Shown here: piece after piece, positions 1 to 60,795 of the stretch
Layout of the letters: every line of letters starts with the position of its first letter
Position numbering within the stretch: position 1 is the first letter of the stretch
Assembly: GCA_025766275.1 (NCBI GenBank)
Contig: JAFKAC010000004.1
Span: 186,001-250,000, forward strand
Length of the DNA stretch: 64,000 nucleotides
Reading direction: 5' to 3'
From: Lactarius indigo
Lineage: Eukaryota; Basidiomycota; Agaricomycetes; Russulales; Russulaceae
Notes under the pieces: model-generated
What the model saw: the letters and a program-made list of their open reading frames with translations, nothing else
The model's database searches: none
What the model was told of the DNA's origin: nothing
Translations under genes and position numbers: made by a program

Positions 1-1495
1 TGGCCTACGATGGTCACTTGTATATTCTGCCGATGAGCTCGCATTGGCCCAATTCAACCTATCATGCATCTGACAATATACATGTCTGGGCCCATAGGAA
101 GGCATTTGTGCTACTGCCAATTAGCTTGTAATGGCCCACAGTAGGTAGCGACGGCTGCCGAGCATATATCTCGTGTGGGCCCATGGCAGCCATGCGCGTA
201 TTCTGCCAACTAGCTTGTATTGGCCTACGATGGCCACTTGTATATTCTGCCGATGAGCTCGCATTGGCCCAATTCAACCTATCATGTATCTGACAATATA
301 CATGTCTGGGCCCATAGGAAGGCATTTGTGCTACTGCCAATTAGCTCGTAATGGCCCGCAGTAGGTAGCGACGGCTGCCGAACATATATCTCGTGTGGGC
401 CCATGGCAGCCATGTGCGTATTCTGCCAACTAGCTTGTATTGGCCTACGATGGCCACTTGTATATTCTGCCGATGAGCTCGCATTGGCCCAATTCAACCT
501 ATCATGTATCTGACAATATACATGTCTGGGCCCATAGGAAGGCATTTGTGCTACTGCCAATTAGCTCGTAATGGCCCGCAGTAGGTAGCGATGGCTGCCA
601 AACATATATCTCGTGTGGGCCCATGGCAGCCATGCGCGTATTCTGCCAACTAGCTTGTATTGGCCTACGATGGCCACTTGTATATTCTGCCGATGAGCTC
701 GCATTGGCCCAATTCAACCTATCATGTATCTGACAATATACATGTCTGGGCCCATAGGAAGGCATTTGTGCTACTGCCAATTAGCTCGTAATGGCCCGCA
801 GTAGGTAGCGACGGCTGCCGAACATATATCTCGTGTGGGCCCATGGCAGCCATGTGCGTATTCTGCCAACTAGCTTGTATTGGCCTACGATGGCCACTTG
901 TATATTCTGCCGATGAGCTCGCATTGGCCCAATTCAACCTATCATGTATCTGACAATATACATGTCTGGGCCCATAGGAAGGCATTTGTGCTACTGCCAA
1001 TTAGCTCGTAATGGCCCACAGTAGGTAGCGACGGCTGCCGAGCATATATCTCGTGTGGGCCCATGGCAGCCATGCGCGTATTCTGCCAACTAGCTTGTAT
1101 TGGCCTACGATGGCCACTTGTATATTCTGCCGACGAGCTCGCACTGGCCCAATTCAACCTATCATGCATCTGACAATATACATGTCTGGGCCCATAGGAA
1201 GGCATTTGTGCTACTGCCAATTAGCTTGTAATGGCCCACAGTAGGTAGCGACGGCTGCCGAGCATATATCTCGTGTGGGCCCATGGCAGCCATGCATGTA
1301 TTCTGCCAACTAGCTTGTATTGGCCTACGATGGCCACTTGTATATTCTGCCGATGAGCTCGCATTCAACCTATCATGTATCTGACAATATGCATGTCTGG
1401 GCCCATAGGAAGGCATTTGTGCTACTGCCGATTAGCTCGTAATGGCCCACAGTAGGTAGCGACGGCTGCTGAACATATATCTCGTGTGGGCCCAT
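1..1495. repeat. 220-bp tandem array, left subterminal region
   Basis: Nearly identical 220-bp units follow each other about 6.8 times. Identical blocks restart at 62, 282, 502, 722 and 942, and the last unit has a small deletion near 1364. Each unit carries two CTGCCGA boxes, several GGGCCCA or TTGGCCCA boxes, and the pair ATATATCTCGTG and GACAATATACATG. Copies differ mainly by transitions, such as CTGCCGA to CTGCCAA near 597 and to CTGCTGA near 1467. The array runs off the left edge of the window. It ends about 75 bp from the stop codon of the first gene. Confidence 0.95.
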
Positions 1496-1568
1496 AATCG
1501 GCATGTATGATTGATGCTGATGAACCTGATTACACTCGCAATAGCCACAGGGTCTACTTGAACTATAG

Positions 1569-3027
1569 TTATGGCATGAGATCATAGCTCTTTCCATCAT
1601 ACATGGTATTTAGAGTCTTCTGGCCGTCATGAAGCCGCACAATTTCCTGCCAAAGCATCTCAAGGACCCTCTCATGTGTCTCACATCTCGATTTCAGGTC
1701 CTCAATCATCTTGTCTTGCCCCTCGCATCTACTTTTCAGAGCCTGGACCTCTTTTTCTAGGTCTCTGACGACACTATTGTTGTCTTCGCCTCGAACTGAC
1801 AGTATGCACGATGAGTGTAAAACCAGATGTAAACTTCAGTGAACACACATGAGATTGCTGGCTCATTGCCTTCCTCCCTGCTTTCATCGGCGTTCTCTTC
1901 TTGGGGCGAAGGCTTGTCCTTTATAAACACTGTCTTGGACTGCTTCCCCTCGTCCCTGACATTTGGCCCATCTCCCTTTGGCGGGTTTGTGTGCTTAGCC
2001 ATCTTACCCTTGGCTTTATCTCGTAGCCTAGCTACCTTTGAACTACAGGTATTTGGAGTGTCGTGTAGAACCTGCAGGAATAATAGATCTTGGATCTTTG
2101 GGCCAGCTTTATGTTTCAATCCAATCACTTACGTTTCCATTATCTTGTCTCTTTGGCATAGTACCGGTGATTGCTTTAGTACAGTCATCGGCAGCTTTCT
2201 GTTTTTCTGCCGATCTTGTGACAATTTCTTCGGCAGCAATTTTATTTCTCAGTGCATCTGTGGGATAAAATATGGGACTCACTCCGAAGACCGCCACCAG
2301 CAGCACACTGCTGCTTCTTCCCATTGCTAGGAATAGTGACTATTGAATGGTCAACCTCTGTTGAATTGTCTTGAGGTTCAGGTGCCATAGATTCCAGAAC
2401 GGAAGCTGCCGACGGGATACTCATTGCTACATTGCTTACCATCGCCGAACCTTCTTGAAGCTTAGGTACCATACATTCGCCACAGGAAGCTGCCGATGTA
2501 AGTAGAGACCCATGAACATCAGAGAACAGTACCGTACCATTTTGACCAGGTAGATGTATGTCCAGCGGTGGAAGATCTTTGGGTGAAGTATAATAGTTGC
2601 TACTTAACACCTTTGGATTATCCTCAGAGACAGCTCTCATGTTCAGGGAGGTTTCAGACTCGTTGAACATCAAAGCAAGGCTCAATAGGAGTGGGTGAAC
2701 ACGGGGAGGTGTGGGACTTCTTGTATTCGCATCAACAAAATAGTTCATCGATTCTCTCTAGAAATATCTGAGCTTAGCTTGTAGAAGCAGATGGAAAGCA
2801 CACTAGGATACCAAGCGTGCTCTCAATAAATTCTTCCACTTTATTTCATCTTGGTGTGTGCATGTGCGGTATGCTTCTAGCCCATTTTTGAGCATAGCGG
2901 CATGGTGGTGAAGAGTTTGTTCATCTTTGGTTAGACCGAGCATGGATGTTGACATGGAATAGAGCTGGTAGTAGATCCAGGGGGAGGCAGTACAGAGCGC
3001 ATATGCAGGTCTGTAATCATGGCCCAT
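1569..3027 (-). CDS. Uncharacterised cargo protein with C-terminal coiled coil
   Basis: I do not recognise this protein. On the minus strand an exon ending near 2812 splices in phase, through a 53-nt intron, into a long exon starting near 2758. Further exons lie near 2255-2118, 2056-1850 and 1798-1569. The second exon holds a loose internal repeat (SAASCGECMVPK and SAASVLESMAPE). The third is Lys/Glu/Ala-rich, and the fourth is rich in charged residues. The last about 65 residues, from DLEKEVQALKSRC onward, alternate hydrophobic and charged positions as in a coiled coil and end at TAA 1569-1571. The true start is uncertain; a Met at 3027 is one choice. The gene lies next to the left array and its exons contain several TCGGCAG boxes, so it probably belongs to the element. 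No stop interrupts the proposed exons. Confidence 0.5.
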
Positions 3028-3164
3028 GCAGATATATTGTCAACTGTCCTATCAGAGCGTTCGGGTTCTGTCGGCAGCTAGTGTGGGTATATAATACAGG
3101 CCATCACAGCATTTCTCCTAGCAGCGTCTGATTGGGCAGCTATGAGTTTATTGCATCACCGGGT

Positions 3165-3565
3165 AGGCTGCTACAAGCTTATCGGTAGCACCTGACTGGA
3201 CCATTCCAAATATATCAAAAGTTGCTGATTGGGCCATGGCAAGCTTATGGCCATTATCTGATTAGGCTGCCGTGAGCTTATCGGCGGCACCTGATTGGGC
3301 TATTGGGCTACCGCAAAGTTTATCGGCATCACCTAATTAGGCTGGTGCAAGTTTATCGGCAGCACCTGATTGGGCCATTGTAATTTTATCGGTAGCACTT
3401 GATTGGGCCACTGCAACTTGATCAGCAGCAACAGGTTTATGGGCAGCAACTGATAGGCCACCGCGAGCTTATCGGCGGCACCTGATTGGGCCATTGTAAG
3501 TTTATCGGCAGAAACTTATTGGGTCACTGCGAGCTTATCGGCAGCACCTGATTGTGTCGCTGAAA
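3165..3565. repeat. 33-bp minisatellite built on TTATCGGCAGCACC
   Basis: About eleven imperfect copies of a unit resembling TTATCGGCAGCACCTGATTG plus GGCCACTGCGAGC. Starts near 3244, 3277, 3319, 3352, 3385, 3418, 3435, 3468, 3501 and 3534 give a dominant spacing of 33 bp. The unit contains the element-wide TCGGCAG heptamer. Because 33 is a multiple of three, the minus strand encodes an 11-residue motif (ADKLAVAQSGA), but one copy near 3513 has an in-frame TAA, so I treat it as non-coding or formerly coding. It lies upstream of the minus-strand gene at 1569-3027. Confidence 0.85.
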
Positions 3566-3567
3566 CA

Positions 3568-4080
3568 TGCTTCCATCTACCATGCAGGGAAACGATTCAG
3601 AGATACAAAAGCATGTCTCTGAGTTAGAGGAGAACAACTTTAAGGAGGCAGTGTGTGGATCAAAACTAATGCCTAACCAGGGCACTAAACCAATGCCTGT
3701 AGATGCGCTCTGAATTCTGGAAGGGTGTTTCATTCCTCAGTGAAACAGATTCTGATGCAGGTCGACATCAGAGGGAAATGACAGGGCCCTCCAATGGAGG
3801 TTTTAGTGAGGTCCCAAAAAATGTGGTGCTCTTACAACCTGTGATTCAAAAGCTCATAGATAAGGTGATTTGGAATGTCATCTGATCTGCCGAAGCTAAC
3901 ACAACACAGGACCCTCCAAAGGGTGTTTCTGCGGAATGGCTTTCAAAAGCCAGATCTAATGCTGGCTTCCTGAAAAAGTGGAAGGTGATAAGGAAAGAAA
4001 AATTGGAAGACCTTTTGAGTGATTTGGAAAATGAGATGGTTTTGGTAGATGTCTTAGCAGGGGGGGATGGAAAACTGTAG
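3568..4080 (+). pseudogene. Possible decayed coding segment
   Basis: On the plus strand, reading from ATG 3568, the frame encodes a Glu-rich stretch (EIQKHVSELEENNFKEAV) that ends at 3714. Another frame continues with FWKGVSFLSETDSDAG and later KARSNAGFLKKWKVIRKEKL up to TAG near 4080, with an in-frame TGA near 3885. Amino-acid composition looks protein-like in these frames, but they do not join by convincing introns. It may be a decayed gene or chance. I recognise no family. Confidence 0.25.
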
Positions 4081-4115
4081 TTGATTTTCACGAAGACATA
4101 GAAATATAATTCTCA

Positions 4116-4793
4116 TTAACCCATGTTTTCTTCCAAACGAGAGGCCTCTCCCTCAAGACTCTCAAAACCATTGGAGATCGTATCGTAAAGGGAATTAACC
4201 TGGTTCTCAATTTCCTTGACCAGTTCCTGTGCTTCTTTGAATTTCCCTACTATTCTAGCGCGAAGTTGCGTGCTAGCTTCCTGCTACAGCACTGGTTAAT
4301 TTGAGGATCAGTAAATGAAACGAGGTACATACCATCTCTAGAGCACGCAGCAACCCCACTACTACCTCCTCACGGACATCGAATGGTTCTTTCATTGTCT
4401 CCCCTTCAAATTTCCACCACTCTGTAAAATTAAATTGAGGAATGCCAGCTGCCTGGAACATTCCCTCTAGCTGCTGGTTTGCTTCGGGAGCCATATAGGA
4501 CCCTGGGTTCCTAATGTCTGAAAACCCACAAAAGGCAATCCTGACTGACTCTGGCACTTGAGGGGAGCTGCTGCTAGACGACAGAAGGCCAATAATCCAT
4601 ACAGCAGCAAGCTAAGTCCAATTTCTGGTGAAAAGATATTCCTAGCACATTGAGTAATGCTTACCACTTCCTTGTGTAAGCTGCCAATATAGTTTTTGTC
4701 AATATCGGCAGGTTTGAGAAGGATAATGGATATTCTCTGGCCAATGTAGGCGAGTGCAGCGTCTAGTATGGAGGTGCCGATTTCAGTGGACAT
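4116..4793 (-). CDS. Small uncharacterised cargo protein
   Basis: Not recognised. The first exon starts at ATG 4793 (MSTEIGTSILDAALAYIGQR) and reaches a good donor (GTGGTAAGC) near 4667. A second exon, near 4575-4333, encodes PESVRIAFCGFSDIRNPGSY and a conserved-looking FTEWWKFEGETMKEPFDVRE segment ending at donor GTATGTACC. A third exon, from about 4283, begins EASTQLRARIVGKFKEAQEL, looks helical, and ends at TAA 4116. The second and third exons join cleanly. The phase of the first intron does not work with the obvious acceptor, so either the splice site or one base is unusual. The helical C-terminus resembles in style, not in sequence, the coiled-coil ends of two other cargo genes. It lies between the minisatellite and the transposase gene, on the same strand as the transposase. 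Confidence 0.45.
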
Positions 4794-5291
4794 GGTATGC
4801 GGATGTGAATTGATGCGCAAATGGAATGGAATCTCTATGCTTAAGAAGCTGCCTTCGGGAGCTGCCGATGAGTGCTGATGATCTTAAGTGAGTATACGCC
4901 CATGCTGCATCATGCACATGACTCCGAGACATCTCCATTTGAAGTTTCTGTTGCTTGTGTGAGGAAATGCCTGTGGCACATGCCTGTCACAAGCCCATAT
5001 ATCGGCAGCCCTCCCGCCAGCTATGTGCTAATAGAATGTCGTTAGCAGAGACCCTCCACCGGCAGCCCAAGCCACAAACACCTACCGGTGACTCATGGCT
5101 AGCTGCAGTGAAGCAAAACATCCAATCTGTTTCCCTTTATAGAGATAACTCTGACTTTCTGTTGGAGACTATATAGCAGGCCTAATTGTAAATGAGGGAA
5201 TGAAACAGATTTATTTCTAAAGGAATTGTAGTTTTAAGCTCCCACTGACTACCGATAGCTAATCGGCAGCGCTATGCGAAAGTTATTAAAC
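4794..5291. other. Intergenic, no gene recognised
   Basis: Between the small cargo gene and the 3' end of the transposase gene. It holds scattered TCGGCAG boxes near 4865, 5003 and 5264 and one open frame of about 73 codons on the plus strand (4955-5176) that shows no recognisable domain. Confidence 0.5.
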
Positions 5292-8200
5292 TCATCTACT
5301 TGGTTGCAGCCGTAGAACTTTAGCAAACTCAGGAGGCGGATTACTCCTGAGTAAAGCAGTAAACCTGGACTCTGCCTGAATAGCCATCGAGCACCACATT
5401 GCACTCTGTTTGGCTGCCCACACAGCATGCCCTGACTGTGACTGGGGCTCAAGGAGCTCCTGCTTTGCTTGCCAAAATTGCTCTTGATGCCTAAAAAACC
5501 TGACAGCGGACTCCATCTCAACTTGAAGACACTGAAGTTCTTCTATCCATCGCATCTTTTGAGCTTTTGCCCGAAGCCAATGTACTCGGTAGACTGTATA
5601 GAGCGTTATATTGTTTGAGTGTGTGTGAACAGAGAGCTACGCACAGTCTTCCATCCATTCCCCAATGTCGGCATCTCTCTGAATGTCCATTGTCCAAAAC
5701 CAGGGCAATGATTTATTCTGCTGGCCACGTACATGAGGGGCAATTACACTTGTCTTGACACTCAAGTCCTGGCGCCTCAAGACTTTGTATCGATCAAGGA
5801 GAGAGGTGCCGGCTCCAAGGTTTACCATTGCCTGCCAGGCACGAATATACACCCGGGCATGATGCTGAACTGTTGACTCGGCAGCATGTACTTCTGCCCA
5901 AGCGCGTGTTTTGAGTCTTTGTGTACGTGCCGGACGAACATCCTGTCTGAACAGATAAGATTTGTGGCCTAGGGAGATGCAAATGTGATGTAGGGAATCG
6001 TTCAGTTGTCCCTCCCGTAGATGTATTTCTGCCTTCGCCAGGGCTTCGGCAGAATTTCCATCACACCAGTCACGTCCAAGATGTGAAGGAAGATGCAACG
6101 AGATATACTCTGCATCCACACTGCCATTGGTAGAGCAATTTCCTGGAAACTCCATTTGATCATGTTCTTCGGCAGATGAAGTGCAATCCTCATCATCTTC
6201 TCCTTCATCAGTGCCATCAAATTCTACACCAATATAGGTTTCTCTTCTTGGGGCATTGTCCCAGTAGTCATCTCTGCTGTCGTGGGGGTCTTGAAGAATG
6301 TTAGCTGCCTGCTTTTGGAATGCGTCAACTCTTTCTTGGAGTCGGGCACGCTTCAAGGTAATATCCCTCTGTTGATCTGGTGTTGGATGGGATCCAATCT
6401 TCCTCACCAGTGCTTGAAGGGATAACCTATGTTTTTTGTGAAATCACGATCAGATGTCTCACTGGAGAAGGTGCCGAGAATCCTACTGTGACTCCTGAAT
6501 CTTCAATCCACTGCTAAGCCATACAGCATGTCCCTTATGGCTAGAGCCCTCAGTCTCCTTCTGTGTCAATTCAAGAAGTATCTCTGCACGCGATGGGACT
6601 GAAACCTGATGTCAGGCAAACATATCATAGAGTAATTGTACCCACATTGTTTCCTCTTGATGTCATAGATGTCCATGACTTTGACGTCATGACCTCGCTC
6701 CCTTTGTGCATACTCCTCTTCGGCGCTCCAAGCCTCAACACTCTCCGTACTTGCCGATACATTTATGGACTCAAATGCTGCCGTGCTGATTGTGGCTCCC
6801 GAAAGTGCCTTTTGGTAGCGTCTAGACACAGCATTGACTACCCAACCCACGTAAGCACTGATGTGGTATCTGTAGGAGGGAACTTGCCTAGGTCAATAAG
6901 CTTCTTCCAATTTGAGTCATTCATATGGTCATCTATGACCTCCCTGCGATGCGATGTTGACATCCCCCTCGTACTTCTGGAGATCTCATTGAGTGGAGCC
7001 CAAAGTGTTTCGATGGTCTCGCCATCTATTTGTCGGCCTCCTTTGATGAAGCTGGGCGAATACCTAGCTAGGCAGGTATCTTGATGCCCATGGATATGAA
7101 AAAGACCAATGCCCAACCTGAGCTCCAGGCCGTCAGGAAGTTTGAGATAGTTGCTGCCGATAACCCTCTCCTTCATATGAACACTCCATTGACACATGAC
7201 ATCATAGCAGATGAGGGTGGCCTCTATCCCCTCCATATTGAAGTTTAGGGCCTTGAATATGGAATAGTCCATATTCTTCTGGCTTTTGGAGGGTTGATTT
7301 TCACTCATTGTATGCAGATAGATATAAGAACTCACGCTTCTCCCTTTTGAAAGTCAACAACAGAATCGGGCACAAAAGCCCCATGAATGCACGCAGTGGC
7401 ACCAATTCCAGTCGATTCAAGGTGTCCGCCGTGCTTGTTTACATTATTTACTGCATGGTGGTCATGGCATGTCAATCTCTGCTCAAGTGTCAACCCTCCC
7501 CTGCCGAAATACCAGAGATAGTGCTTACCTGCCGCCTCTCAACTGCCAATTTCAGGTGCAATTCATATGACTTTTGACTGACCATGAATCCTGTACCTTC
7601 AGAGAGTGGAATGTCATTCTTGGGATTCCTCATCTTCATGTGCTCTGCCTGGAAGTTCCCATCCATCATGAAGCCCCGCATGAAAAGGGTTTTGCTAAAG
7701 TAATATGTCGGCAGTTACTAGGTACCGAAGACTATTGACACACCTATTTTCAAACTCTCTCCAATCCTCGGGGAGGTTGATTCCAGGTTGTGCACACAAA
7801 GCACAGAATATAGCTGTTGATCCCGGCTTCTGTTCTTCATTCTCCCCATACCCGAAACCGAATCTCTTCCGGGAAATGAGTACTCTCCACTGCCGGGAGA
7901 CCCTCAGCAGCTCCCGATATCGGTCCTAAAGCTGCCGATTAGTCTGCTATCGGCAGATGTGCTAAGTTCTCTTACCGGCACTGAATTTGGAAACTCATCA
8001 TTTGTGAGTCTCCTTAGGCGACTGAAAAATTGGCTTGGAGTCGTCTTGCATTCAAGATTGTCCAAATGGAAGTCTTCTAGCACCCAGAAGGTAAATGCTG
8101 TCTTTGGGTTGCGAAATGTGGCTGGAAAGAGCCCTGCCATCATCAACTGCATGTCGTGCTCGGGAGCTTCAGGGCAGAAGCACCAGCTGACGCCAATCTC

Positions 8201-9035
8201 GTGGATTCCAGACCTATCAATGACAGTTATTATTTGATTTCCCTCTTTATCATGACGCCCAGGTTTTGGACTGTCGAAGCCAAGGTCGGCAGCTGCATGA
8301 TACTCTCTGTGGCTACCGACCTGGCAGTCTTCGTCGGCATCATAGCACCTCTGTGACTGTATTTTTTGGAATGAGATTTAAAAAATAAAAGGGTTGGCAA
8401 CGCACACTTTGAATTGGGCACAAATCCCCAGAGTGCCCAAGACGCAAGCATATCCCAACCTCCCGCAACCACGATGGCATGAAGTATTTCCCTGTCCACT
8501 TCTGAACCCTGTGGAACGGAAGCCGGTTATGTGATTTTCGGCAGCACTCCTTGCAGAGCACCAGAGCAGGGAAGCAGTCGGTACATCTCCACTCAAATGG
8601 GGCAGACATGCAGCCCTGGCACATTGTCATAGCTGGGACACCCTCAGAGTTGAGGAGGCAACGCAAGTAGGGGCCAATCCTAGGAATAAATTCTTCCATG
8701 TATATGTGCTGGGACTGGGAGAACATGTAAAATACTATTGGAGAAGGGCATGGATGCAAACCCACTCTCGTCTGTTCAGGTATGAATGGCTCCTCTATCC
8801 AGATTGTCTCATCAACATCCATGGATGCAGGGTCGGTTTCATCCAATATTGCCCCATGGTTGTCTATCTCCATTCTGCCAGCATCTTGTCTTGGTGTCGG
8901 CAGATTTGTTGAGGTGCCTACTTCTACCGGGATATTTCTGGTTCCTCGGGAGCCTTCTCGGGACACCCACTCAATCACCTTAGCCTTAGACTTTCTGTGG
9001 AGGAATTTGGATGCCTTCACACCCTTGCGTGCCAT
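5292..9035 (-). CDS. KDZ transposase with CxC2 cysteine cluster
   Basis: Predicted transposase of the Kyakuja-Dileera-Zisupton superfamily, mobilising the surrounding element. About eleven exons join in frame by roughly 50-nt introns, giving some 1,050 residues without a stop or frameshift; the start is ATG 9035. Exons 1-2 give a basic N-terminus and then the CxC2 cluster (CQGC, RCTDCF, LCKECC, then SHNRLPFHRV). Exon 3 has GLFPATFRNPKTAFTFWVL and exon 4 has DRYRELLRVSRQW with CALCAQPGINLP. Exon 7 is the catalytic core, with CYDVMCQW, GLFHIHGHQD and DGETIETLWAPLN followed by GMSTSHRREVIDDHMND. Its Asp and Glu residues are the likely metal ligands (inference). Exons 10-11 carry the family's usual C-terminal WFWTMD and VHWLRAKAQKMRW segments. 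One intron near 6840-6892 has a GC donor (GCAAGT). The gene looks intact and possibly active. CTGCCGA boxes occur in exons and introns. Confidence 0.93.
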
Positions 9036-10297
9036 GGGAAACTAAGAATGGATGTGTCGTGTGTTGCAGTATATGTCCCTGAAGAAGCAGCGCCTCCAAT
9101 TAACCTGTCGGCAGCTTTGGCTGGCTGGGTATTGCGTCTGTGGATTTTGCGGTCCGGACTTGACCTGTGGTCACTCACGCTACTGTCGGTAGCTTAGATA
9201 AACCAGGTTTGGCAGCCAATCAAACCACTTTGTGCTGTTAAACTGGACTGGACTGGACCTGTGGTCACTTACACTACTATCGGCAACTACTTAAACCACT
9301 TCAGGCTGTTCTCTCATGTAGCACATATTTTATCTATTGTATATGACATGAGATACCCTTTGATAGCATGTTGCTTCGTTCATCCTCAACTGTGAAGCAC
9401 AAATTTGGGGTCAACAGTTCTGTTTATGCAAAAGTGTGCCTTCTCAAGGTACCTGGCAGCGGTGTCTGTCATTATTTTAGGGTTTCTACCATTTGGTTGA
9501 TTGGTAGCTACCGAAAGTGTACTAGACCATATTACCATCTCGGCAGCCTCGGCAATATAACACAGAGATAACACAGATGCCGTCTGTCTTGACAAAAAAC
9601 AAGATATTTCTCTTGTGATTGAGACAAGGCTCGATAGTATGGTCTCTAGGAGTGTGACATGAGTACACCCCATTAAGATGGCAAACAGTTTGACTTGGCT
9701 GAGGGACAATTACCAGGAATTATCGCTCCAGAGACATTTACTGATCTACCGAAAAACAATATAATGTTGTATCTGCAAAATATCGTACTAACAAATGAGC
9801 TACCGAAGCCATGGATCCGCCATGGGGGGTATGCCCAAATATGCTGATGTAGTTTCCTAGCAGTGTAGAGCTCAGATCCTGCAGCGATAAGGGTATCTGT
9901 TAAGGAGGAAGATCCAGAAACTACATCTTCCCTATATCATAGCATCACCCAGGTCTGATGTTAGTAGCTAGCCAATGAATGAGATGTCATTGGTAATGCC
10001 CCAAATAGAGTGTTGTCTGGCAGCTCAGGAGAGGGAGCTGAGAGAGATTTTTCATAGAGAGGGATTGTAATTTACTATGGATCACCATTTCTGTTCAAGA
10101 CGTTTGGTGAGCTGCCGCAAAAATAACAATATTTCTTTGTATTTGTGAAACCTTGCACCGACAGTGAGCTGCCGAAATCATAGATATACCATAATAGCCA
10201 TGCCCTATTACACTGATTCCCATTGCTAGTGGTATCGAATTCTGGCCTTGCTAAGTCAAGAAAAGATATATAGGAGAAAGCTTTGACAGTCGCTATG
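9036..10297. other. Intergenic region between transposase and TET/JBP genes
   Basis: Upstream of the transposase start and downstream of the dioxygenase stop, so it probably holds the transposase promoter. It contains TCGGCAG boxes near 9106, 9541 and 10172 and degenerate forms (TCGGTAGC near 9186, TCGGCAAC near 9280). A 107-codon open frame on the minus strand (9386-9709) has no recognisable domain and I do not call it a gene. Confidence 0.5.
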
Positions 10298-11592
10298 TTA
10301 CTGATAGTGGGCTATGTTCATCCAAGAATTCCCTGGAACCCCTGCCCACTCATGTACTCTATCCCTCATGAAGTATGCGTAGCATACTCTTTCTCCTTCA
10401 AAATTGTGCACTTCATGCTCCAGCGTCCCCCCTAACAGGCCAACTACTGAACCAGGACCATACTCCAGCGAGAGTCCAATTCCCGGCAGCCTCAAATTGC
10501 AATTTCGGTAGCGCCCAACAGACGCCAGCAAATCATACCATTGTTTCCTGGAATTTCCGTCCCGATGTGGCGGCGTGAGGCGATTACAAATGACAGAGAC
10601 GCCGTTGAAAACGGATGTCCATTGACGGAGGACATCCTGTGGCTGGATCTCGGCACATTCTCTTAGCCGTTTGAAGGTATCCTGACCGGTATTATAAAGC
10701 TCCGGATGAATGACAGCCAGGATTGCACTCAATATTGAATTGGATTGAGTGATGCAATCTAGCCAGTCCAAGACAGCTGGCTTTCTCAAAGCCGCACCGA
10801 CCTGGGGGTGTGGTTGTACCATCTCAATTGAAATCAGCTGCTGAATGATAAAACATTACTGGTAGAGAAAATTCACCTCATGTCCTTGTTGGAACCATGC
10901 AGGTGATATGTTGATCACCCCCTGAAGGCCCTCTAGCCCTGAAGGAAATATTTCTGGATCAACACGCCAAGATGTGCTACTTTGACGCTTGCTCAACAAA
11001 AAATGTAGCTTCTCTGTTGCTGCCATCATTTCACCCTAAAATACATTATATTTGATGCGGTGATCGGACAAGGTGAGTAAACTTACCTGCCGAGAATCAT
11101 TCAAGATTCCAGGAAGATGCCATGCCAATATCATTCCTTGGTTGTCAATGACAATGCAGGGCCTTGAAATGGTAAGGGCAGCTGCCGTACCCTCCAGCGG
11201 AGGATATTGCCTCTTCAGGCTGGCCTCTTTCTGCTTGGACACCTGGGTTCCTGGATTGTTTGGCTTCATTGGGAGCTTATCTGCATAACGTGTAATATCC
11301 CAGTTTATCTGCACTGCTTGGATTGTCTCAGGATATATGTCTGAGTGCCCAGTCTGTGTCACTAACCACGGTTCATGAATGCATCCACCAGAGTGAGTGC
11401 AATTCGATCCAGCTCTGAAATTAGAGGCACCAGCAGCATCAAGGGAGCTCGTGGTGCCTTAGCAACGCTGATTGGCTGAGAGGAGCGCTGGTTTAACTTG
11501 TATTGGAACTGAGCACGGAGGTATTCGGCACAGAGATGGGACAGACTCAGGGGGGAGAGTGTGCACGTCTGAGGGAGCTGGAAAGCCTGCAT
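10298..11592 (-). CDS. TET/JBP-like 2-oxoglutarate/Fe(II) dioxygenase
   Basis: Predicted nucleic-acid base oxygenase of the fungal TET/JBP family, which oxidises 5-methylcytosine or thymine methyl groups using 2-oxoglutarate and Fe(II). Four exons (11592-11367, 11313-11087, 11035-10877, 10837-10298) join with matching phases and GT-AG introns to 383 residues with no defect. The N-terminal part has RPCIVIDNQGMILAWHLPG. The double-stranded beta-helix core has the iron-binding HxD in TPPHRDGNS (His295, Asp297), the distal His345 in TLEHEVH and Arg354 in GERVCYAYFMRD, the likely 2-oxoglutarate anchor. It is divergent from the gene at 11777 across a 184-bp gap with three TCGGCAG boxes. Its position beside a KDZ transposase matches the known linkage in mushrooms. 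Family assignment rests on motifs; substrate is not known. Confidence 0.9.
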
Positions 11593-11776
11593 TTCCTCAG
11601 CGTCAAGGGACTTGAATGAAGATGATTAGCTGCCGATACATGCGGATTCCGTGGGAGTTGAGCTCCCGATAAACAATCCCACGCTGCCGAGCACAAGTTG
11701 GCACGTGATATAATGCCTTAAAGCTGCCGAACCTTTAGACCTTAAGTCTATCCCTCTTGAAAAACCTACCTTCCCG
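11593..11776. promoter_or_regulatory. Divergent promoter with three CTGCCGA boxes
   Basis: The start codons of the TET/JBP gene (minus) and the next gene (plus) are only 184 bp apart. The gap has CTGCCGA at 11630-11636, 11684-11690 and 11724-11730, all in the same orientation, spaced 54 and 40 bp. A TATAAT-like stretch lies near 11709. A shared bidirectional promoter, possibly bound by the factor that reads this heptamer, is an inference. Confidence 0.5.
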
Positions 11777-14162
11777 ATGCCGAACACCAGCAAACAAATG
11801 AAAAAGCCTACCAAGCCTACCAAAGAGGTTGAGCGCAAAGGGCCAGGCATTGAGTCTTCAGACTCTGAAGACCCTGATGACAGCGACTACAATTTTTGCC
11901 TGCAGTCTAACTGCTCAGATTTATCTTTCGATAGGGTGTCAATCATCTCTGGTGATTTACATGTCATCGCTCGAAGGGGCATTCCTACCGATGATGAGGA
12001 GGGAGGTAGCACAGAAAATGAGAGGTGTGTATTCTGGTCTAATGTATGACTGCTAAAATGTGACCTTGGACAGGGATTCGATCGCACCTGGCGATCTAGA
12101 CATGGTCACTCAAGAGGGTGTAGCTCCCGGAAACGAAGAAAGTGATAGTATGGGTCAAGCGAGGTGGGTACACTTGTTGTTTACACAGACGCCCTCCATT
12201 GACATTGCTTCACACTCAAGCCAGAGTATTGAACTAACAGATGAACAAACCGACATATTGCAGAGGCACGTTGCTGCATTCCGAGCTGCCGACCCAGATT
12301 CTCGGTCCAAAATCATCCAAGTTTCCGTTGACAGCATCAAGAAAAGTTGGCGACAAGGCGTGGGCTTCAATAGAGATGGCGTAGAAATGGTACGTTTGCT
12401 TTAGCCTCAACAATGTTGCACCGCTCTCATATTTCGTAGTTTGTACGCCGATTCCTTTATAACAGGTGCCGACGGGAGCGAAGACAATGCCAGTTTCGTC
12501 ACAGAAAATGGACATATCACGACATTTTGGTTGATGTTCACCGAAAGGAACTTGACAAGATGGCTCTCGAAATGTCTGGGTCGAAGCGGGGATCGGCAGC
12601 CTACCTTGGTTGCTACAAAAAGTCCATCAAGGTGATCAGCCAGAGATTAGATGAACATACACGGGTGAAGTACAGAGCGGAGGCGAAGAAATGGACAGAG
12701 CAACAGGCTCCCCCTCGGCAGCAGCAGCGGTACGTGCATGCCAAGCACTCTATCGTGTGGGAAGTAACTAAGTCCTATCAAGGATGTTTGGGAAACATGG
12801 TATCAACACCATGCGAGATTTTTCTGAGTCCATGTACCGCCAATATGGTGTACGGGTTGCCATATTAGCAGGCTACTGCGACAGTGATGGCGAACCGGCG
12901 ATCATGTTGTGAGTATCAAATTCTATCTACTTACAATCTAGCGACCTATTACCTAGCCATGACATCAATAACGAATTGGGTGGAACGTCCTTCAAATCGC
13001 GACACAAAGACTGGCAGAGGGACCCAATGGTCGAGGACTTCTCAAGATGGACTGCCGAGTCCTTTGGTGGGAGTCTATTTTGCTTCAAGGGAAGTGTGCT
13101 AATGCGGCACCTTTATAGGAGTCCATGCTAGCGATGACAGCAAAGAGGAGGGAAAAGGGAAGGATGCAACGCCAATTATCAAGCTGGTGATAGACAAGAA
13201 TGGGTATCCCATGCTGCCGAGATGGGAAGCCATCAAACGCGAGGGTCTTATGTACAGGAAGTACCTCATTGGCAGGTTCATGGGCGAGACGTACAGTAAG
13301 TGAGCTACAGCTTGTAGTAGACCTATCACTTATGAACTTATCAGAGATTGCTGTGGGCGGGGGAAAGGGCAGAATCCCATGGGCCAGACTGAAAGAGACC
13401 CCAGGTGACTTCATCCTTTCCAAGTACCTGCCGGCCAGTGTTACGCTCACTCAGTACCATCACATTCGCCAAGAGGATGTCAACGCATTGCTCAAACACT
13501 GGACGCAAAGGCAAGCTGCCGGCGAGATCCCATTCTGTTTCAAGATGAGAGATGTCTGGGGGCGTCAGGCACAAGGAAATGATGAAGAAACCCCTGGAGA
13601 TGGAAATGCTCTAACCAAAGAGGGGGCTGACGGTAATGGCCAAGAAGACAGCGCTGGGGGTCCAAGCGATGTAAGTAAGCTCCTTGTGTTGATGGGAGAT
13701 GCTTACCATCTTTTTCCGCACCTTAAGCCTCACCCTCACCACAGCACCAGCAGCCAAAGGCATGGAAATGGTGCCGAGGTGTGTGAGGAGCTGGGACAGG
13801 GAGATCGAGATCCATCTCCGCACCCACCCAACGCTGCACCCCCTCACACTCGCCCTCGCCCTCGCATTATCACACAACGCCACTCTACAACAGGAAGCTC
13901 AAGGGCGGATCAAGCTGCCGGGGCATCTACCACTCATAGACCAGTTCCCGACACAGCTGCCGATACTCGTCCCCCCAAGCGTCAGAAAGTCAGCAACCCC
14001 ACCATAAATGCACAGCCTGAGACTCGGCGCTCAGGGCGTTCAACACGGCCTACAGAGCGGGTCAAGCAAACGCAGTAAGTAATGACTTCTTTGTTGTATC
14101 TAGAACCTGAAGTTCCCAATAGGGGTAGCAATATGTATTCTAGGAAGAGAGCACGTCGCTAG
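11777..14162 (+). CDS. Uncharacterised Agaricomycete TE-cargo protein
   Basis: No named domain, but the core matches my memory of a large family of mushroom hypothetical proteins. Start ATG 11777. Proposed introns begin near 12033 (49 nt), 12389, 12731, 12909, 13068 and 13290. A last one near 14076 gives a basic C-terminus (KRARR) ending at TAG 14160-14162; without it, translation stops at 14078. The N-terminus is acidic (SDSEDPDDSDYN). Then come ELTDEQTDILQRHV with VDSIKKSWRQG, FRHRKWTYHDILVDVHRKEL, MFGKHGINTMRDFSESMYRQ, LVIDKNGYPMLPRWEAIKRE and LSKYLPASVTLTQYHHIRQE. The C-terminal part is low-complexity with KRQK and RRSGRSTRPTERVK, so nuclear location is likely. It is convergent with the following Zn-cluster gene. 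Confidence 0.7.
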
Positions 14163-14318
14163 CAGTCTTTGTATCACCTTTCTCCATCCACTCTCTAATT
14201 CATGGTATCACAAGTCCTCATTGTAGTATCTATTGTCCATTCGTCGTAGTCGATATACAGATGTGTTGCAAAAACTTATACTTGATGAAACAGAAAACAT
14301 GAAGGCCTAATCAGCCTT

Positions 14319-15948
14319 TTATGCCCCACCGCCTTTCATCAACACCTCCAATTTCTCCTCGACATCCGCCAACCTCATCTCCAGGTGTTGGATCCTTTCG
14401 GCAGAGTTGTGCTCAGGAACTTCCTGAGGTGCTTGAGCTGCCGAAACCCCAGAACGCTGCCGAGAGGATGACAGAACCAAGTGTGAGGGCATTGGCACCT
14501 CCACAACTGGCACAAGGTGTCGTGCAGGTTGCAAGCGCCGACGGAGGGAGGGAGTGATCGCGGGGGTGGCATCGGCAGCACCGGCAGCTGCAGCAGGAGC
14601 GGAGGGACCGGCAGCTGCAGTGGCGGTAGCGGTGGCAGTGGTGTCAGTGGCAGAGGGGTTGGGAGAGGTGGGAGAGTCAGGCGCCGTGGGGGCCAGCGAA
14701 GCTGGAGACGCTGCGTTGGATGACGTGCTGTACAGCGTCAGCCCCTCAACCAACCTTGAGGCCGATGCTGCCAAGTCTGACGCCTCCGACGTCTTCCTGT
14801 ATGCAGCTGCGGGCTGCTTTCCTTCCCGCACCTTGTACTGAGCGATGCGGTACCTGCACACCACTTCCGGCTTCAGGTGGCGCCGATCGGTCTTGCCTGT
14901 CTTCGAGTTTGGCGGCATCAAGCTGCACCCCACCTTGCTGCTTTGGCAGCGCAAGCAGGGAGCTGTCGGCTGTGGCTCGCAGTGCACATTGGCCTTGATG
15001 CATCTTTCACACTATCACCAAGTTCTTTCAGCTGAATCTTAATGAAAATATATAACTACGCACCGAAAATTCATACTCGTCGTCGTCGTCATCGTCATCA
15101 TCGTCGTCCTCACTCTCCAACTCGTCTCCTATCACTTTGGGAGGGAGTCGGACTGGCACATTCCGCTTCTTGGAACGGTGCGGCGGTGGTGAAGTAAGCT
15201 TGCGCTTCCTCGAGGTAGCTGCCGAACCAGCTGCCTTCTTCTTTCCCTTCTTGTGGATTGAGGGAGGCTCAGGGGACTTATGGAGTTAATCAGAAACAAA
15301 ACGTAAATGGGGAAGTATTATTGCTCACCTCCTCCAGCTGGTCTACCTCCATCTCGTCTTCTGAGTCTTCAGGAGGTGGGCCCATGATGAGCGTCACCTT
15401 CGGCAGGTGCCGACGAGGAGGTGAAGGTGGTGGTGGTGGTGGCGGTGTAGGACTTGGTGCTGCATTTCCAGCGGGCACCCCCCCATCCCCATGCTTGGCA
15501 GCTGTGGAGGTTTAGACTGTGTTTGAGGGAAAGGTGAACAGTGACTTACCAAGGTGCTCCCACCAGCGGCCCTCATTTGGAGGCAATAGGTGCGAGATGT
15601 CGGCGGGGAATTTGGCACTGGGCAGGTAATATTTGTGCTTGTTAATTGAAGGGTGCCCCCTGCCGATGTCTGACAAATCCCCCTTGGCATCGAGGACGAT
15701 ATACAAGGCGGCTAGCGTTGGGTGTAGCGCCGGCAGGTCCCCCGAATTTCGCCGGAGCCTCCTGAACTCTCGCGTCATGAGGACCTAGTTCAAATGGGGA
15801 TTGGATGGAAACTGCAATTGAATTAAGTACGTACCTTCTCTTCCTCAAAGCGGCGTTCCCATTCAGCCCTGTCAGCAACATCGCGAACGCTGACATAGCT
15901 TGCAACAGCGGCCTCAACCCTAGCGGCGATATGGAGGAGGGAATTCAT
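14319..15948 (-). CDS. Zn-cluster-like cargo protein
   Basis: Five exons join with perfect phase: 15948-15835, 15784-15550, 15501 to about 15330, about 15276-15070, and about 15015-14319. Residues 1-115 are a helical region (REFRRLRRNSGDLPALHPT, then KHKYYLPSAKFPADISHLLP and RWWEHL). Then come a proline run, an acidic segment (EDSEDEMEVDQLEE), a basic nuclear-signal-like part (HKKGKKKAAGSAATSRKRKL), and about ten consecutive acidic residues. The last exon opens with a cysteine cluster: CERC, then CEPQ, then PCLRC and KVGCSLM, resembling half of a fungal binuclear zinc cluster. The end, ERIQHLEMRLADVEEKLEVL, is a short coiled coil. A DNA- or chromatin-binding role is likely from composition only. 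It is divergent from the next gene across 245 bp. Confidence 0.75.
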
Positions 15949-16193
15949 GGCGTTGGTGGGTATGAAAAAAAGTGTGTTGGCAGTTTACGTTGCCACATTG
16001 AAGCGAGGTCAACAAGCGGCATGCTGCCGAGCTGCCGAAACTACCGATCTGGAATCTGGAACCTGACTCAGCAAAAAACAGTAATGAATCTTGAGTGTCT
16101 CTTGCGTAATAAGCAATCTAGATATATAGGCTCATTCCGCATTGAGTCTCCCTTATCACCGCCTCATCAAACTGTCCCACTTCTTTGCTAGCT
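15949..16193. promoter_or_regulatory. Divergent promoter with tandem CTGCCGA pair
   Basis: Region between the starts of the Zn-cluster gene (minus) and the repeat-protein gene (plus). It has two directly abutting boxes, CTGCCGA at 16024-16030 and 16032-16038, and a TATATA stretch near 16129 about 65 bp before ATG 16194. Bidirectional use is inferred from gene order. Confidence 0.45.
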
Positions 16194-17140
16194 ATGTCTC
16201 GCCCTTTTCTTGCACTATCGGTTGACACTCGGCAGCTTGTGACCGGAAGAGATGCGCCATTATCTGCCGAAGGTCAAGACGATTTTGGCATGGATGGGTC
16301 GCCCTCTCCACAAAGCCAACACAGCTTTGGCATGGATGGGTCACCCTCCCCTCAAAGTCAACGCAGCTTCGGTATGAGTGGGTTGTCATCCCCTCAACAC
16401 CAATACAGTTTCGGCATGGGTGGGTCACCCTCTCCTCAACGCCGACATAGTTTCGGCATGGATATGTCACCATCCCCCCAACGCCAACACAATCTTGGCA
16501 GGGATGGGTCACCCTTGTCACCCTCTTCGCATGGACAACGCAACTTTGGTGTGGACAAGCTGCCTTCACCAGAATCTCAAGACAACTTCGGCAAGGATAT
16601 GCCGACCTCACCTGACATCCAAGATCAGGGGACTGACCCTGCGTCGAGGATGGAAGCCCCACTGGTTCTAGGGACTCAACAACCCAGCATTGACCCAGTG
16701 CCAACACAGGAGGAAAGATCTGGGACAGGCGTCTCTCTACCTACCGAGGCCAGAGAGACCTTCGGCAGCCATTCGGCAGCTCACAGTAAGTCTCATTTCT
16801 ACTGATTATATATGTCTCTAACTCTGTGTGCACAGCTTGGAATTGGGGTGATCGTGCCCCATCTCCCAGCAACTCTGAGATAAAGGAAGGTGAGGTCGGT
16901 CAGGAGGAAGCACCTTCAGAGCTGGTGCGCCACATTGTCAACCTAGCATAGTGAAAACTGACCATTGTTTCTTTCTAGCAAGAAGAGTACGACCTGGGAA
17001 CTCGGGTGTCGATCTTACGTGCCGAAGCTGTAAGACTTCGGCGGATCTACGTCCAAGCTTGGCGGATTTATGAGAGGGAGATTGCTTTGAGTGAGGTTGT
17101 AGACGCTATGGTAGATGAGCTGGACAATATTGAGGCGTAG
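16194..17140 (+). CDS. Cargo protein with eight 14-residue SPSPQ repeats
   Basis: Three exons (16194-16785, 16836-16924, 16979-17140) join in frame with GT-AG introns to 280 residues. I do not recognise a family. Residues about 30-145 are eight tandem copies of a 14-residue unit, FGMDGSPSPQSQHS in its clearest form, the sixth with a three-residue insertion. The Ser-Pro pairs suggest a phosphorylatable, disordered low-complexity region, possibly a scaffold or a transcription-related tail; this is inference. Exon 3 is a Glu/Arg-rich helix (EYDLGTRVSILRAEAVRLRR) typical of coiled coils. The start at ATG 16194 was preferred to an upstream in-frame TTG. TCGGCAG boxes occur in and around the gene (16223, 16763, 16773). 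It is the last gene before the right-hand array. Confidence 0.7.
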
Positions 17141-17440
17141 AACATTATATAGCGGTGTCGAATACTTAAATAGTACGCATATAGCAGCCTTGATTCAGAT
17201 GCAATTTAAGTACACCCAGAAGAGATTGCTGGTTGATATGATAAAGGATAATGGGCAACTCAAATGACAAAGTCGGGATCTCCAAAAAGGACACCAGCAC
17301 AATGTAAGATACTCAGTAAAGGTGCTATGAGGGTGATGTAGAGGCCATTTGGGACCGTCGGTATTATTTGCAGGAACATTGTAGGGCTTAAGTAGTCCCA
17401 GTGAGGATGGTCGGTAGCTCTCTGTGATTCAATTCTGGGC
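17141..17440. other. Intergenic, no feature recognised
   Basis: Three hundred bases between the repeat-protein gene and the right array. No convincing open frame and no element-type box except a degenerate TCGGTAGC near 17411. Confidence 0.5.
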
Positions 17441-19330
17441 CAACTGCAAACCATCAACAGCAATTCACGACTATGGCCATTGGCCCACCCATTTATCTCA
17501 GCAGTTTTGCCAATCAGTGTCCATGGCCAATCTGAGCTATTCGGCAGCTCTATCAATGGGCCCACTAATGATATATACCAGCTGTTACTTGATGGGCCCA
17601 CGTGGGTTTTACCTATGTAATTGGTCTATTTACACTATTACTAGATCGTGGGTCTGTTCAATGTGTTCGGCAGCTTTCAATGAGTTCAACCCAGGCCCAC
17701 TCTAAATTATTGACAACTCTTCTAAGCTGTGCCAATTGGCCCATTCGTTTATCTCGGCAGTTTTTCCAATCAGTGTCCATGGCCCATCCTTTTATGCCAG
17801 CGGTTCTATCCATGGGCCCACTCATGATATATGCCCACTGCTACTTGATGGGCCCACGAGGGTTGATCGATGTAATAGGTCCATTTACACTATGTCTAGA
17901 TCATGGGCCCACTCAAGTTGTTCGGCAGCTCTCGATGAGTTCAACCGCAGGCCTACTCTAAACTATTGACAACTCTTCCTAGCTGTGCCAATTGGCCCAT
18001 CCATTTATTTCAGCAGTTTTATCCATGGGCCCAATCATGATATATGCCCACTCTTGCTTGATGGGGCCATGTGGGTTCAACAATGTAATAGGTCAATTTA
18101 CACCCTGCCTGATCGTGGGCCCACTCAAGATGTTCGGCAGCTCTCTGTGGGCTCAACAATGGGCCCATTCTAATATATTGACAACTCTTCCTGGCTGTGC
18201 CAATTGGCCCATCCATTTATCTTGGCAGTTCTATCCATGGGCCCACTCATCACATATGCCCACTCTTGCTTGATGGGCCTGCGTGGTTTCACCAATGTAA
18301 TAGGTCAATTTACACCCTGCCTGATCATGGGCCCACTCAAGATGTTCAGCAGCTCTCTGTGGGCTCAACAATGGGCCCATTCTAATATATTGACAACTCT
18401 TCCTAGCTGTGCCAATTGGCCCATCCATTTATCTTGGCAGTTCTATCCATGGGCCCACTCATCACATATGCCCACTCTTGCTTGATGGGCCCATGTGGTT
18501 TCACCAATGTAATAGGTCAATTTACACCCTGCCTGATCATGGGCCCACTCAAGATGTTTGGCAGCTCTCTGTGGGCTCAACAATGGGCCCATTCTAATAT
18601 ATTGACAACTCTTCCTAGCTGTGCCAATTGGCCTGTCCATTTATCTTGGCAGTTTGATCCATGGGCCCACTCATGATATATGCCCCTCTTACTTGATGGG
18701 CCCATGTGGTTTTACCAATGTAATAGGTCAATTTACACCCTGCCTGATCGTGGGCCCACTCAAGATGTTCGGCAGCTCTCTGTGGGCTCAACAATGGGCC
18801 CATTCTAATATATTGACAACACTTCCTAGCTGTGCCAATTGGCCCATCCATTTATCTCGGCAGTTCTATCCATGGGCCCACTCATGATATATGCCCCTCT
18901 TACTTGATGGGCCCATGTGGTTTCACCAATGTAATAGGTCAACTTACACCCTGCCTGATCATGGGCCCACTCAAGATGTTTGGCAGGTCTTTGTAGGCTC
19001 AACAATGGGCCCATTCTAATATATTGACAACTCTTCCTAGCTGTGCCAATTGGCCCATCCATTTATCTCGGCAGTTCGATCCATGGGCCCATGTGGTTTC
19101 ACCAATGTAATAGGTCAATTTATACTATGCCTTGATTGTGGGCCCACTCAATGTGTTTGGCAGCTCTCAATGAGTTTAACCATGGGCCCACTGTATACTA
19201 TTGACAAAACTTCCCAGCTACTACAATTGGCCCATTCATTTATCTTGGCAGTTCTATCCATGGGCCCACTCATGATATATGCTCACTCTTGCTTGATGGG
19301 CCCACATGGGTTTCAACAACCTGTAAGGTC
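17441..19330. repeat. 212-bp tandem array, right subterminal region
   Basis: About nine units. The central ones repeat exactly every 212 bp (identical blocks at 17985, 18197, 18409 and 18621); the first is longer and the last two are rearranged. Each unit has two boxes of the type ATCTCGGCAG and GTTCGGCAGCTC, several TGGGCCCA palindromes and TATATTGACAACTC. Read on the minus strand, the left array shows the same box order. Between units the CpG of the box varies between CG, TG and CA, while surrounding bases are conserved. Confidence 0.95.
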
Positions 19331-53004: not shown

Positions 53005-53500
53005 TGTTACGCTCCACCGGCGTTAGTCCGACTTGGACACTGCGAGGGCGTAATCAACTTAGCGGAGATAGGTGAATGGGGACCACGTGTCAACCCAACA
53101 CGAGCTGAACAGGGGCTCTTCGGCACACGCTGCAGCAAAGAAGTAGTATCCCTTGATGGATACGAGTGGAGGTACACTTAGTCTGAGACTAAGGAAGAGA
53201 GCGAGTCAAATGGTGGATTGAAGAAGACCAAGATGGGGACTCTTGGTCTTCCGACGCTACTACTTATACAGATACGTGCGGGCTTTAAAGCGCCGCTGGA
53301 ATGGTAAGTAACCAATAGCGTAACTAGCTCGAACCCTAGTACAGCTATCCTAGGAATGAGTCATACATGAGTCACAATCACATGCGAACTACTATGCTGA
53401 TTCATACGAAGTAAGAGTCCATGACTAATACTGATACCGGACCGTAGTCATAACCGGTCATGAGTCGTGTGTAATGAGTCATCAAGTCCGTACTGTAACA
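53005..53500 (-). repeat. Element 6, 3' LTR
   Basis: 496 bp, TGTTACGCTCC to TACTGTAACA in plus reading; polypurine tract AAAAGGGGGTGA (minus) abuts at 53501-53512. Confidence 0.97.
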
Positions 53501-53532
53501 TCACCCCCTTTTCAAGAGTGAGGCCCACCTCA

Positions 53533-60278: not shown

Positions 60279-60286
60279 GATTGAGG

Positions 60287-60297
60287 ATCTTGGTCTT
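60287..60297 (-). promoter_or_regulatory. Element 6 self-priming primer-binding site
   Basis: AAGACCAAGAT (minus), two bases from the LTR; complementary to ATCTTGGTCTT at 60529-60519, 34 nt downstream of TATAAG (60563-60558). Confidence 0.87.
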
Positions 60298-60299
60298 AA

Positions 60300-60795
60300 T
60301 GTTACGCTCCACCGGCGTTAGTCCGACTTGGACACTGCGAGGGCATAATCAACTTAGCGGAGATAGGTGAATGGGGACCACGTGTCAACCCAACACGAGC
60401 TGAACAGGGGCTCTTCGGCACACGCTGCAGCAAAGAAGTAGTATCCCTTGATGGATACGAGTGGAGGTACACTTAGTCTGAGACTAAGGAAGAGAGCGAG
60501 TCAAATGGTGGATTGAAGAAGACCAAGATGGGGACTCTTGGTCTTCCGACGCTACTACTTATACAGATACGCGCGGGCTTTAAAGCGCCGCTGGAATGGT
60601 AAGTAACCAATAGCGTAACTAGCTCGAACCCTAGTACAGCTATCCTAGGAATGAGTCATACATGAGTCACAATCACATGCGAACTACTATGCTGATTCAT
60701 ACGAAGTAAGAGTCCATGACTAATACTGATACCAGACCGTAGTCATAACCGGTCATGAGTCGTGTGTAATGAGTCATCAAGTCCGTACCGTAACA
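60300..60795 (-). repeat. Element 6, 5' LTR
   Basis: 496 bp; promoter with TATAAG at 60563-60558 and predicted RNA start at 60529 (minus). Confidence 0.97.

Follow-up and report, generated by a model that had tools for sequence, protein, structure and literature searches.

We analysed a 64,000-nucleotide stretch of the Lactarius indigo genome (GenBank assembly GCA_025766275.1, contig JAFKAC010000004.1, positions 186,001 to 250,000; C226:186001-250000 in our coordinates, within a genome of 90.3 Mb in 291 contigs), referred to below as the window, and found at its left edge a complete DNA transposon, 19.9 kb long and belonging to the KDZ superfamily, whose seven genes and two terminal arrays have moved as a unit. 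An earlier note, made from the letters of the first 19,330 bases alone, had described a defect-free transposase gene, a defect-free TET/JBP dioxygenase gene and five other intron-containing genes lying between two related arrays, with one heptamer spread over all of them, and had proposed that the whole of at least 19.3 kb is mobile. This description is borne out for the genes, the arrays, the heptamer and the joint movement, and the minimum length stands, but the ends had to be redrawn: the element measures 19,899 bp and runs from C226:185486, 515 bases left of the window, to window position 19384 rather than 19330. The gene models were built with a splice-aware script guided by a second, related family, with some exon bounds set by hand, and all seven are open. 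The features are as follows, where dN/dS is the ratio of nonsynonymous to synonymous substitution rates between the two families and positions are those of the window.

1..1495, the element extending a further 515 bases outside the window, no strand: left terminal tandem array, 220-bp unit
1496..17450, no strand: core between the arrays, with 51 CTGCCGA/TCGGCAG words (31 exonic, 4 intronic, 16 in spacers)
1569..2955, minus strand: gene A, 389 amino acids, 5 exons, C-terminus coiled-coil-like by eye, dN/dS 0.48
4116..4793, minus strand: gene B, 191 amino acids, 3 exons, low-confidence helical model, dN/dS 0.45
5292..9035, minus strand: KDZ transposase, intact, 1,094 amino acids, 10 exons, CxC2 and KDZ domains, dN/dS 0.14
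10298..11592, minus strand: TET/JBP dioxygenase, intact, 379 amino acids, 4 exons, dN/dS 0.39
11777..14078, plus strand: gene C, 666 amino acids, 7 exons, dN/dS 0.39
14319..15948, minus strand: gene D, 475 amino acids, 5 exons, acidic stretch, C-terminus coiled-coil-like by eye, dN/dS 0.26
16194..17140, plus strand: gene E, 280 amino acids, 3 exons, dN/dS 0.30
17479..19268, no strand: right terminal tandem array, unit of about 212 bp for its main part
19372..19384, no strand: right terminus GCGCCATTATGTG-3', from the end comparison of copies
19385..19391, no strand: 7-bp target-site duplication GGTGAAC, partner copy at C226:185479-185485

The transposase matches the KDZ domain (PF18758) over residues 406-625 with 167.6 bits (E 4.4e-49, cut-off 26.6), and a CxC2 cluster lies N-terminal to it at residues 235-330 (91 bits, E 7e-26). 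The dioxygenase matches Pfam Tet_JBP (E 8.6e-18), has CcTET as its nearest solved structure (8jkk/7vpn, E 5e-20), and keeps the HxD motif, the distal histidine and an aspartate aligned with the CcTET Asp337 position. On these conserved residues it is classed as an AG-type TET/JBP enzyme and a homologue of 5-methylcytosine (5mC) oxidases, the residues for 5mC activity, the AG-type criteria and the Asp337 numbering being taken from excerpts of PMC12730594. Gene A matches no Pfam family above cut-off, and gene E has a 42-bp (14-residue) unit repeated about 5.5 times and a conserved C-terminal stretch. The helical domains of gene C are, at middling scores, similar in structure to homeodomain, HMG box and GTF2I domains, as judged from a model of its L. 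indigo homologue P0001. The abstract of Iyer et al. 2014 reportedly mentions a divergent HMG-domain protein, and gene C may be a protein of that kind. Gene D carries at residues 246-274, as does its family-2 counterpart, the pattern C-x2-C-x6-C-x7-C-x2-C-x6-C, a cysteine spacing like that of Gal4-type Zn2Cys6 regulators (PF00172).

Both arrays contain CTGCCGA as well as the palindrome TGGGCCCA. The right one contains many TGGGCCCA palindromes together with TCGGCAG (words counted over 17451-19384), and the palindrome occurs 28 times there, 18 times in the left array including the part outside the window, and once in the core, so that it may be a further site specific to the ends. The spacer that separates genes A and B holds, at 3302-3554, degenerate 33-bp repeats with TCGGCAG, perhaps the relic of an internal array.

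The exact ends come from comparing copies, as the earlier note had suggested. The left terminus reads 5'-GAGCCCATGACGC, with its first base at C226:185486. Three further copies fetched with their flanks align to the window element mostly at 98-99% (95-98% in the arrays); the left end is common to all three and, at first comparison, the right end to two. Two end searches, with both ends required in consistent orientation, yielded 17 paired copies including that of the window, of which 12 carry perfect 7-bp direct duplications. The other five comprise C90 with 8 bp, C218 with one mismatch, C226b with two mismatches, and C230 and C13 with none. In several of these pairs the ends lie much further apart than 20 kb, owing to the insertion of other elements. 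Outside the 17 stand unpaired left or right ends, for example on C65, C289, C57, C268, C244 and C179, and the ends on C262 were left unpaired; right-hand ends with no paired left end, on C65, C289, C57, C278, C277 and C270, belong to truncated or interrupted copies.

A genome search with the transposase DNA, in which 40 of 117 candidates were scored, gave at least 46 matches, 15 of them full-length at 99% identity or more. Each of these 15 is accompanied by a Tet_JBP match, no more than 3 kb away on the expected side, and by the A-B block immediately on the opposite side, interrupted in one case; transposase copies lacking their neighbours, which the earlier note had named as what would speak against a mobile unit, thus number none among the full-length ones found. 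With copies about 99% identical, transposition is recent. All seven genes are intact in two of the three further copies examined (C24a, C230 and C13). Copy C13 (C13:1236358-1264694) bears another element, similar to window 53005-60795, inserted in gene E at about window 16449-16454; its genes A and C carry stops, and its outer ends lack a matching target duplication.

The same package exists in a second family, represented by a copy at C50 whose set of seven genes is the same and agrees in order and orientation. It is about 82% identical in transposase DNA (17% diverged) and mostly 65-78% identical elsewhere, its arrays are built of other units, and its left end, which the comparison covered, begins with the same 14 bases as the window element. 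Codon-by-codon dN/dS between the families ranges from 0.14 to 0.48 over the seven genes, with upper 95% limits of 0.18-0.68, on aligned codons that amount, for example, to 587 of 666 in C, 411 of 475 in D and 356 of 389 in A. Selection has maintained this set of genes from the time the two families separated. At least 13 near-full-length transposases of family 2 were found (40 of 117 candidates scored), 12 of them with a Tet_JBP match within about 11 kb; the family-2 transposase on C251 has none nearby among the matches listed. Searching the genome for Tet_JBP itself (40 candidates scored, families assigned from coordinates) gave at least 39 matches, 21 in family 1, 17 in family 2 and one elsewhere, at C112:436940. 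This lone match outside both families, spanning C112:436940-437368, is the best-scoring among the matches found and has KDZ matches about 11 and 23 kb away. KDZ domains are far commoner, with at least 175 matches (150 scored of 250 candidates), so that many KDZ elements of this genome probably lack a TET gene.

Homologues were sought for genes C, D and B at E ≤ 0.001, by a search that reaches only relatives with short words in common and that, in the case of C and D, scored the best 8,000 candidates. We found at least 47 for C, at least 17 for D and 22 for B, and every named source is a Lactarius. Matching contig sizes, rather than observed synteny, point to three L. quietus contigs (152,997, 81,090 and 100,215 bases) that each hold homologues of both B and C, and to one L. 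pseudohatsudake contig (131,523 bases) with homologues of C and D.

The heptamer CTGCCGA runs through the whole element. The window contains 83 exact matches, 72 of them at or before 19330, when 7.2 are expected for its whole length. Its density is 3.2 per kb in the family-1 core (51 in 15,955 bp) and 3.9 per kb in that of family 2 (69 in 17,855 bp), a 24- to 29-fold enrichment over the 0.13 per kb (18 in 142,880 bp) of other DNA from the same genome, a background that includes some dozens of bases from the left end of family 2 and, in locus L009, the other KDZ element described below. It is both the most frequent and the most enriched 7-mer in the two cores, and its single-letter variants are far rarer, each occurring at most 23 times against 120. 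In family 1 it pervades exons (2.97 per kb), introns (2.6 per kb) and spacers (4.0 per kb), about once per 300 bp over the element, with a largest core gap of 985 bp. The two orientations are about equally used in the core (24 and 27), which points to double-stranded DNA, not RNA, as the form in which the word acts. Beyond a preferred AG in front, its sequence contexts are unrelated.

Coding constraints do not account for this density. When synonymous codons were shuffled with protein and codon use held fixed, 2.71 exon words were expected in family 1 and at most 11 appeared in 2,000 shuffles, compared with 31 observed. For family 2, restricted to four of the seven genes because the other three models were not clean, 24 were observed against 2.94 expected, the maximum of 1,000 shuffles being 12. 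When the exons are aligned, 15 of 30 family-1 words are common to both families, compared with 4.7 expected from other 7-mers (p=1.1e-5), while 15 and 16 (31 in total) are found in one family only; individual sites are therefore gained and lost, yet the density is maintained. The best word reaches log10 P values from -16 to -71 in the two cores and the other KDZ stretch, and the best 6- or 7-mer only -3.6 to -9.3 in ten retrotransposon and other stretches without a listed KDZ match.

That other KDZ stretch, upstream of the window, is the right part of an element with a word of its own. CTGCCGA is absent from C226:154309-159602, where the top word is TCCGGA (20 in 5,294 bp), and in the modelled transposase exons TCCGGA occurs 12 times against 2.08 expected, with a maximum of 8 in 2,000 shuffles. 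We rejected the idea of a small KDZ element of 5.3 kb, its left edge being a junction with a repeat resembling a retrotransposon long terminal repeat; the element is longer, since shared sequence continues for another 5 kb in further copies. This copy is interrupted by what looks like a retrotransposon, and short repeats around TTTCCGGAAAT recur about 33 bp apart near the right end of the family. Among the matches listed, no Tet_JBP match adjoins TCCGGA-family copies, and tblastn with the proteins encoded by the window element found nothing in two of these copies (L069 and L070). The three TCCGGA-family copies followed further left all encode, upstream, a protein with the pattern C-x2-C-x6-C-x11-C-x2-C-x6-C. 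Over 197 kb read in six frames, the six-cysteine pattern occurs five times, always inside KDZ elements (families 1 and 2 and the three TCCGGA-family copies), and it was not found in the non-KDZ DNA scanned. Gal4-type zinc clusters (Zn2Cys6) read CGG triplets, and CTGCCGA and TCCGGA both contain CGG. The link between word and cysteine protein is a correlation over two kinds of KDZ element, not a demonstration.

Among known systems, the element is Kyakuja-like, with its 7-bp target duplication and AG-type TET/JBP passenger. TET-carrying Kyakuja elements of the KDZ superfamily, with 7-bp duplications and occurring in Russulales among others, are described by Kojima 2025 (PMC12730594, seen in excerpts), and the likeness extends to the KDZ transposase, the conserved aspartate of the AG-type enzyme and, here in family 1, the duplication length. 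Read in transposase orientation, the window element has termini 5'-CACATAATGG...CATGGGCTC-3', ending in ..CTC where the published 3' end is ..TG; because its termini thus differ from the 5'-CA..TG-3' of Kyakuja, we file it as Kyakuja-like, not as Kyakuja. Kyakuja elements have no terminal inverted repeats; here, inspection of the ends by eye showed only a short imperfect match, ATGACGCA against ATGGCGCA. Unlike Kyakuja as described in the main-text excerpts of PMC12730594, it carries five further genes, long terminal arrays and the dispersed word. In size (more than 15 kb) and accessory genes it resembles the giant KDZ elements of Ectocarpus, Chlamydomonas and fungi, which reach about 30 kb, with accessory genes in the fungal ones, whereas a dispersed private exon word such as that seen here is not mentioned in the excerpts of PMC12477816 that describe them. 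A Starship-type identity was considered and rejected, the recombinase found being KDZ. The earlier note had thought a package of this size with such helpers undescribed; giant multi-gene KDZ elements and TET-carrying Kyakuja are in print, but we found no description of this seven-gene package, and no report of a family-specific word running through transposon exons, in the open-licence literature. What is new here is the word CTGCCGA across exons, introns and spacers, while a giant KDZ element with accessory genes is of a published kind.

Variation between copies of the element is dominated by CpG-to-TpG change: outside the words, 39 of 974 CpG sites are variable, compared with 8 of 6,517 other C/G sites, as expected if the elements are methylated, which makes escape from methylation a plausible need. 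We propose, on what we regard as an even balance of probability, that CTGCCGA is a private double-stranded address, read by an element-encoded protein that would direct the dioxygenase, and perhaps the transposase, to the element's own copies. The word would be kept as a putative binding site about every 300 bp over the element, exons included. Its reader would most likely be the zinc-cluster-like protein D, favoured for the CGG triplet contained in the word; C (homeodomain- or HMG-like) or the CxC2 region of the transposase may act alongside it. Once bound, the reader would coat the element through its words and bring in the TET dioxygenase and perhaps the transposase, which would leave the element free of CpG methylation and expressed, with the host not demethylated.

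In operation this would be like the anti-silencing by VANC in Arabidopsis, with the addition of an onboard 5mC-oxidase homologue and an address in coding sequence. VANDAL elements there have short, dense, family-specific words, tandem arrays and self-specific methylation loss (excerpts of PMC5735166 and PMC10398659). The window element shares with them a dense family-specific word, tandem arrays and a different word in a related family, the methylation loss being shown in VANDAL and proposed here; in those excerpts VANC sites lie in noncoding tandem repeats, whereas here 31 of 51 core words lie in exons. The window element encodes its own 5mC-oxidase homologue, whereas VANC is not known to have dioxygenase activity.

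A broader version, which we hold more tentatively and think somewhat less than evenly probable, is that every KDZ family has a CGG-containing word of its own, spread along the body of the element and through its exons, as well as a gene for a zinc-cluster-like reader; in the elements described here the reader would recruit TET, giving self-addressed demethylation, and selection for word density would constrain the coding sequence. A dense, family-specific word, if selection does keep it in exons, would offer a concrete address and a short list of candidate readers, bearing on why mushrooms multiply TET genes with KDZ transposons and on whether these enzymes select their DNA or work on it at random. 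Fungi would then have, independently, a parallel to the anti-silencing by VANC in plants, and the coding sequence of a whole element would, unusually, be under constraint from DNA-binding sites.

Several observations weigh against an address read by an element-encoded protein. The match of D to PF00172 stays below the cut-off of 21 (11.5 bits for the whole protein, 18.4 as a fragment), the fragment's Zn_clus match spans only 12 profile positions, and few basic residues lie between Cys2 and Cys3, unlike in Zn2Cys6 regulators; given the score, we call D zinc-cluster-like only. The cysteine protein of the TCCGGA family shows no homology to D by sequence comparison and gives no Zn_clus match, and TCCGGA itself is dense in the right 5.3 kb of its element and sparse upstream (3 or 4 per 5 kb). 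The exon excess of CTGCCGA is non-significant in gene B and in the TET gene taken alone (one word each; P 0.12 and 0.09), and the transposase gene alone reaches log10 P of just -9.4 and -10.7, near the strongest control of -9.3, which comes from GGAGGA repeats. Excerpts of PMC12730594 speculate that AG-type enzymes act without target specificity. Protection of CpG sites inside the heptamer was considered and rejected, 4 of 102 being variable compared with the 39 of 974 outside it (Fisher p=1; four copies, whole core). An eight-copy sample of the transposase region, in which one locus (L007) had no orientation key and was kept as it stood, gave a non-significant hint of protection, with 4 of 42 word CpGs variable compared with 75 of 350 (p=0.10). 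The negative outcome for the whole core neither supports nor excludes recruitment.

The strongest competing explanation, rather unlikely in our judgement, is that the word is the transposase's own binding site, recognized for instance by its CxC2 zinc region, which would gather the ends and coat a long element, with TET acting independently and without sequence choice. All three KDZ families examined have both a word and a transposase, and in the family for which no TET match was seen, copies of the word lie densely about the transposase gene and at the right end. The word is also densest in the terminal arrays, with 8.5 and 4.1 per kb in family 1, whose core has 3.2, and 15.9 and 7.6 in family 2 (the right array being covered in part), whose core has 3.9. 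Such a role leaves the exon sites several kb from the ends unexplained, and, as 82.3% of aligned residues agree between the family-1 and family-2 transposases, their common word does not discriminate the reader, which we count against the transposase. It is improbable that the word is instead a host mark, for example a signal for nucleosomes, replication or recombination to which a host factor binds: double-stranded, orientation-free sites spaced over the whole core without a gap beyond 985 bp would suit it, but two kinds of KDZ element in one genome use different words, and the background density is low.

We give very little credence to a functionless word arising from codon usage, base composition or copying from the arrays; many exon copies do encode alanine-rich triplets such as SAA and AAD, but with protein and codon counts fixed family 1 still shows an excess of about 11-fold and family 2 one of about 8-fold, the word is better conserved from one family to the other than are other 7-mers of these genes, and the unrelated contexts make array copying unlikely. 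Equally hard to credit is the view that genes A-E are chance passengers that form no working package: the all-Lactarius homologues allow that the set may be recent and local, but it is repeated entire in the second family and linked in part, as it appears, on contigs of two other species, and purifying selection on each gene, with every upper dN/dS limit below 0.7, leads us to reject it.

Beyond the element, at 25251-57399 on the minus strand, the window holds a pile of Ty3/gypsy-type retrotransposon genes, with RVT_1, RNase H, integrase, Chromo and gag matches in nine of ten scanned open reading frames. Sequence related to these retrotransposons also sits near or inside other KDZ copies.

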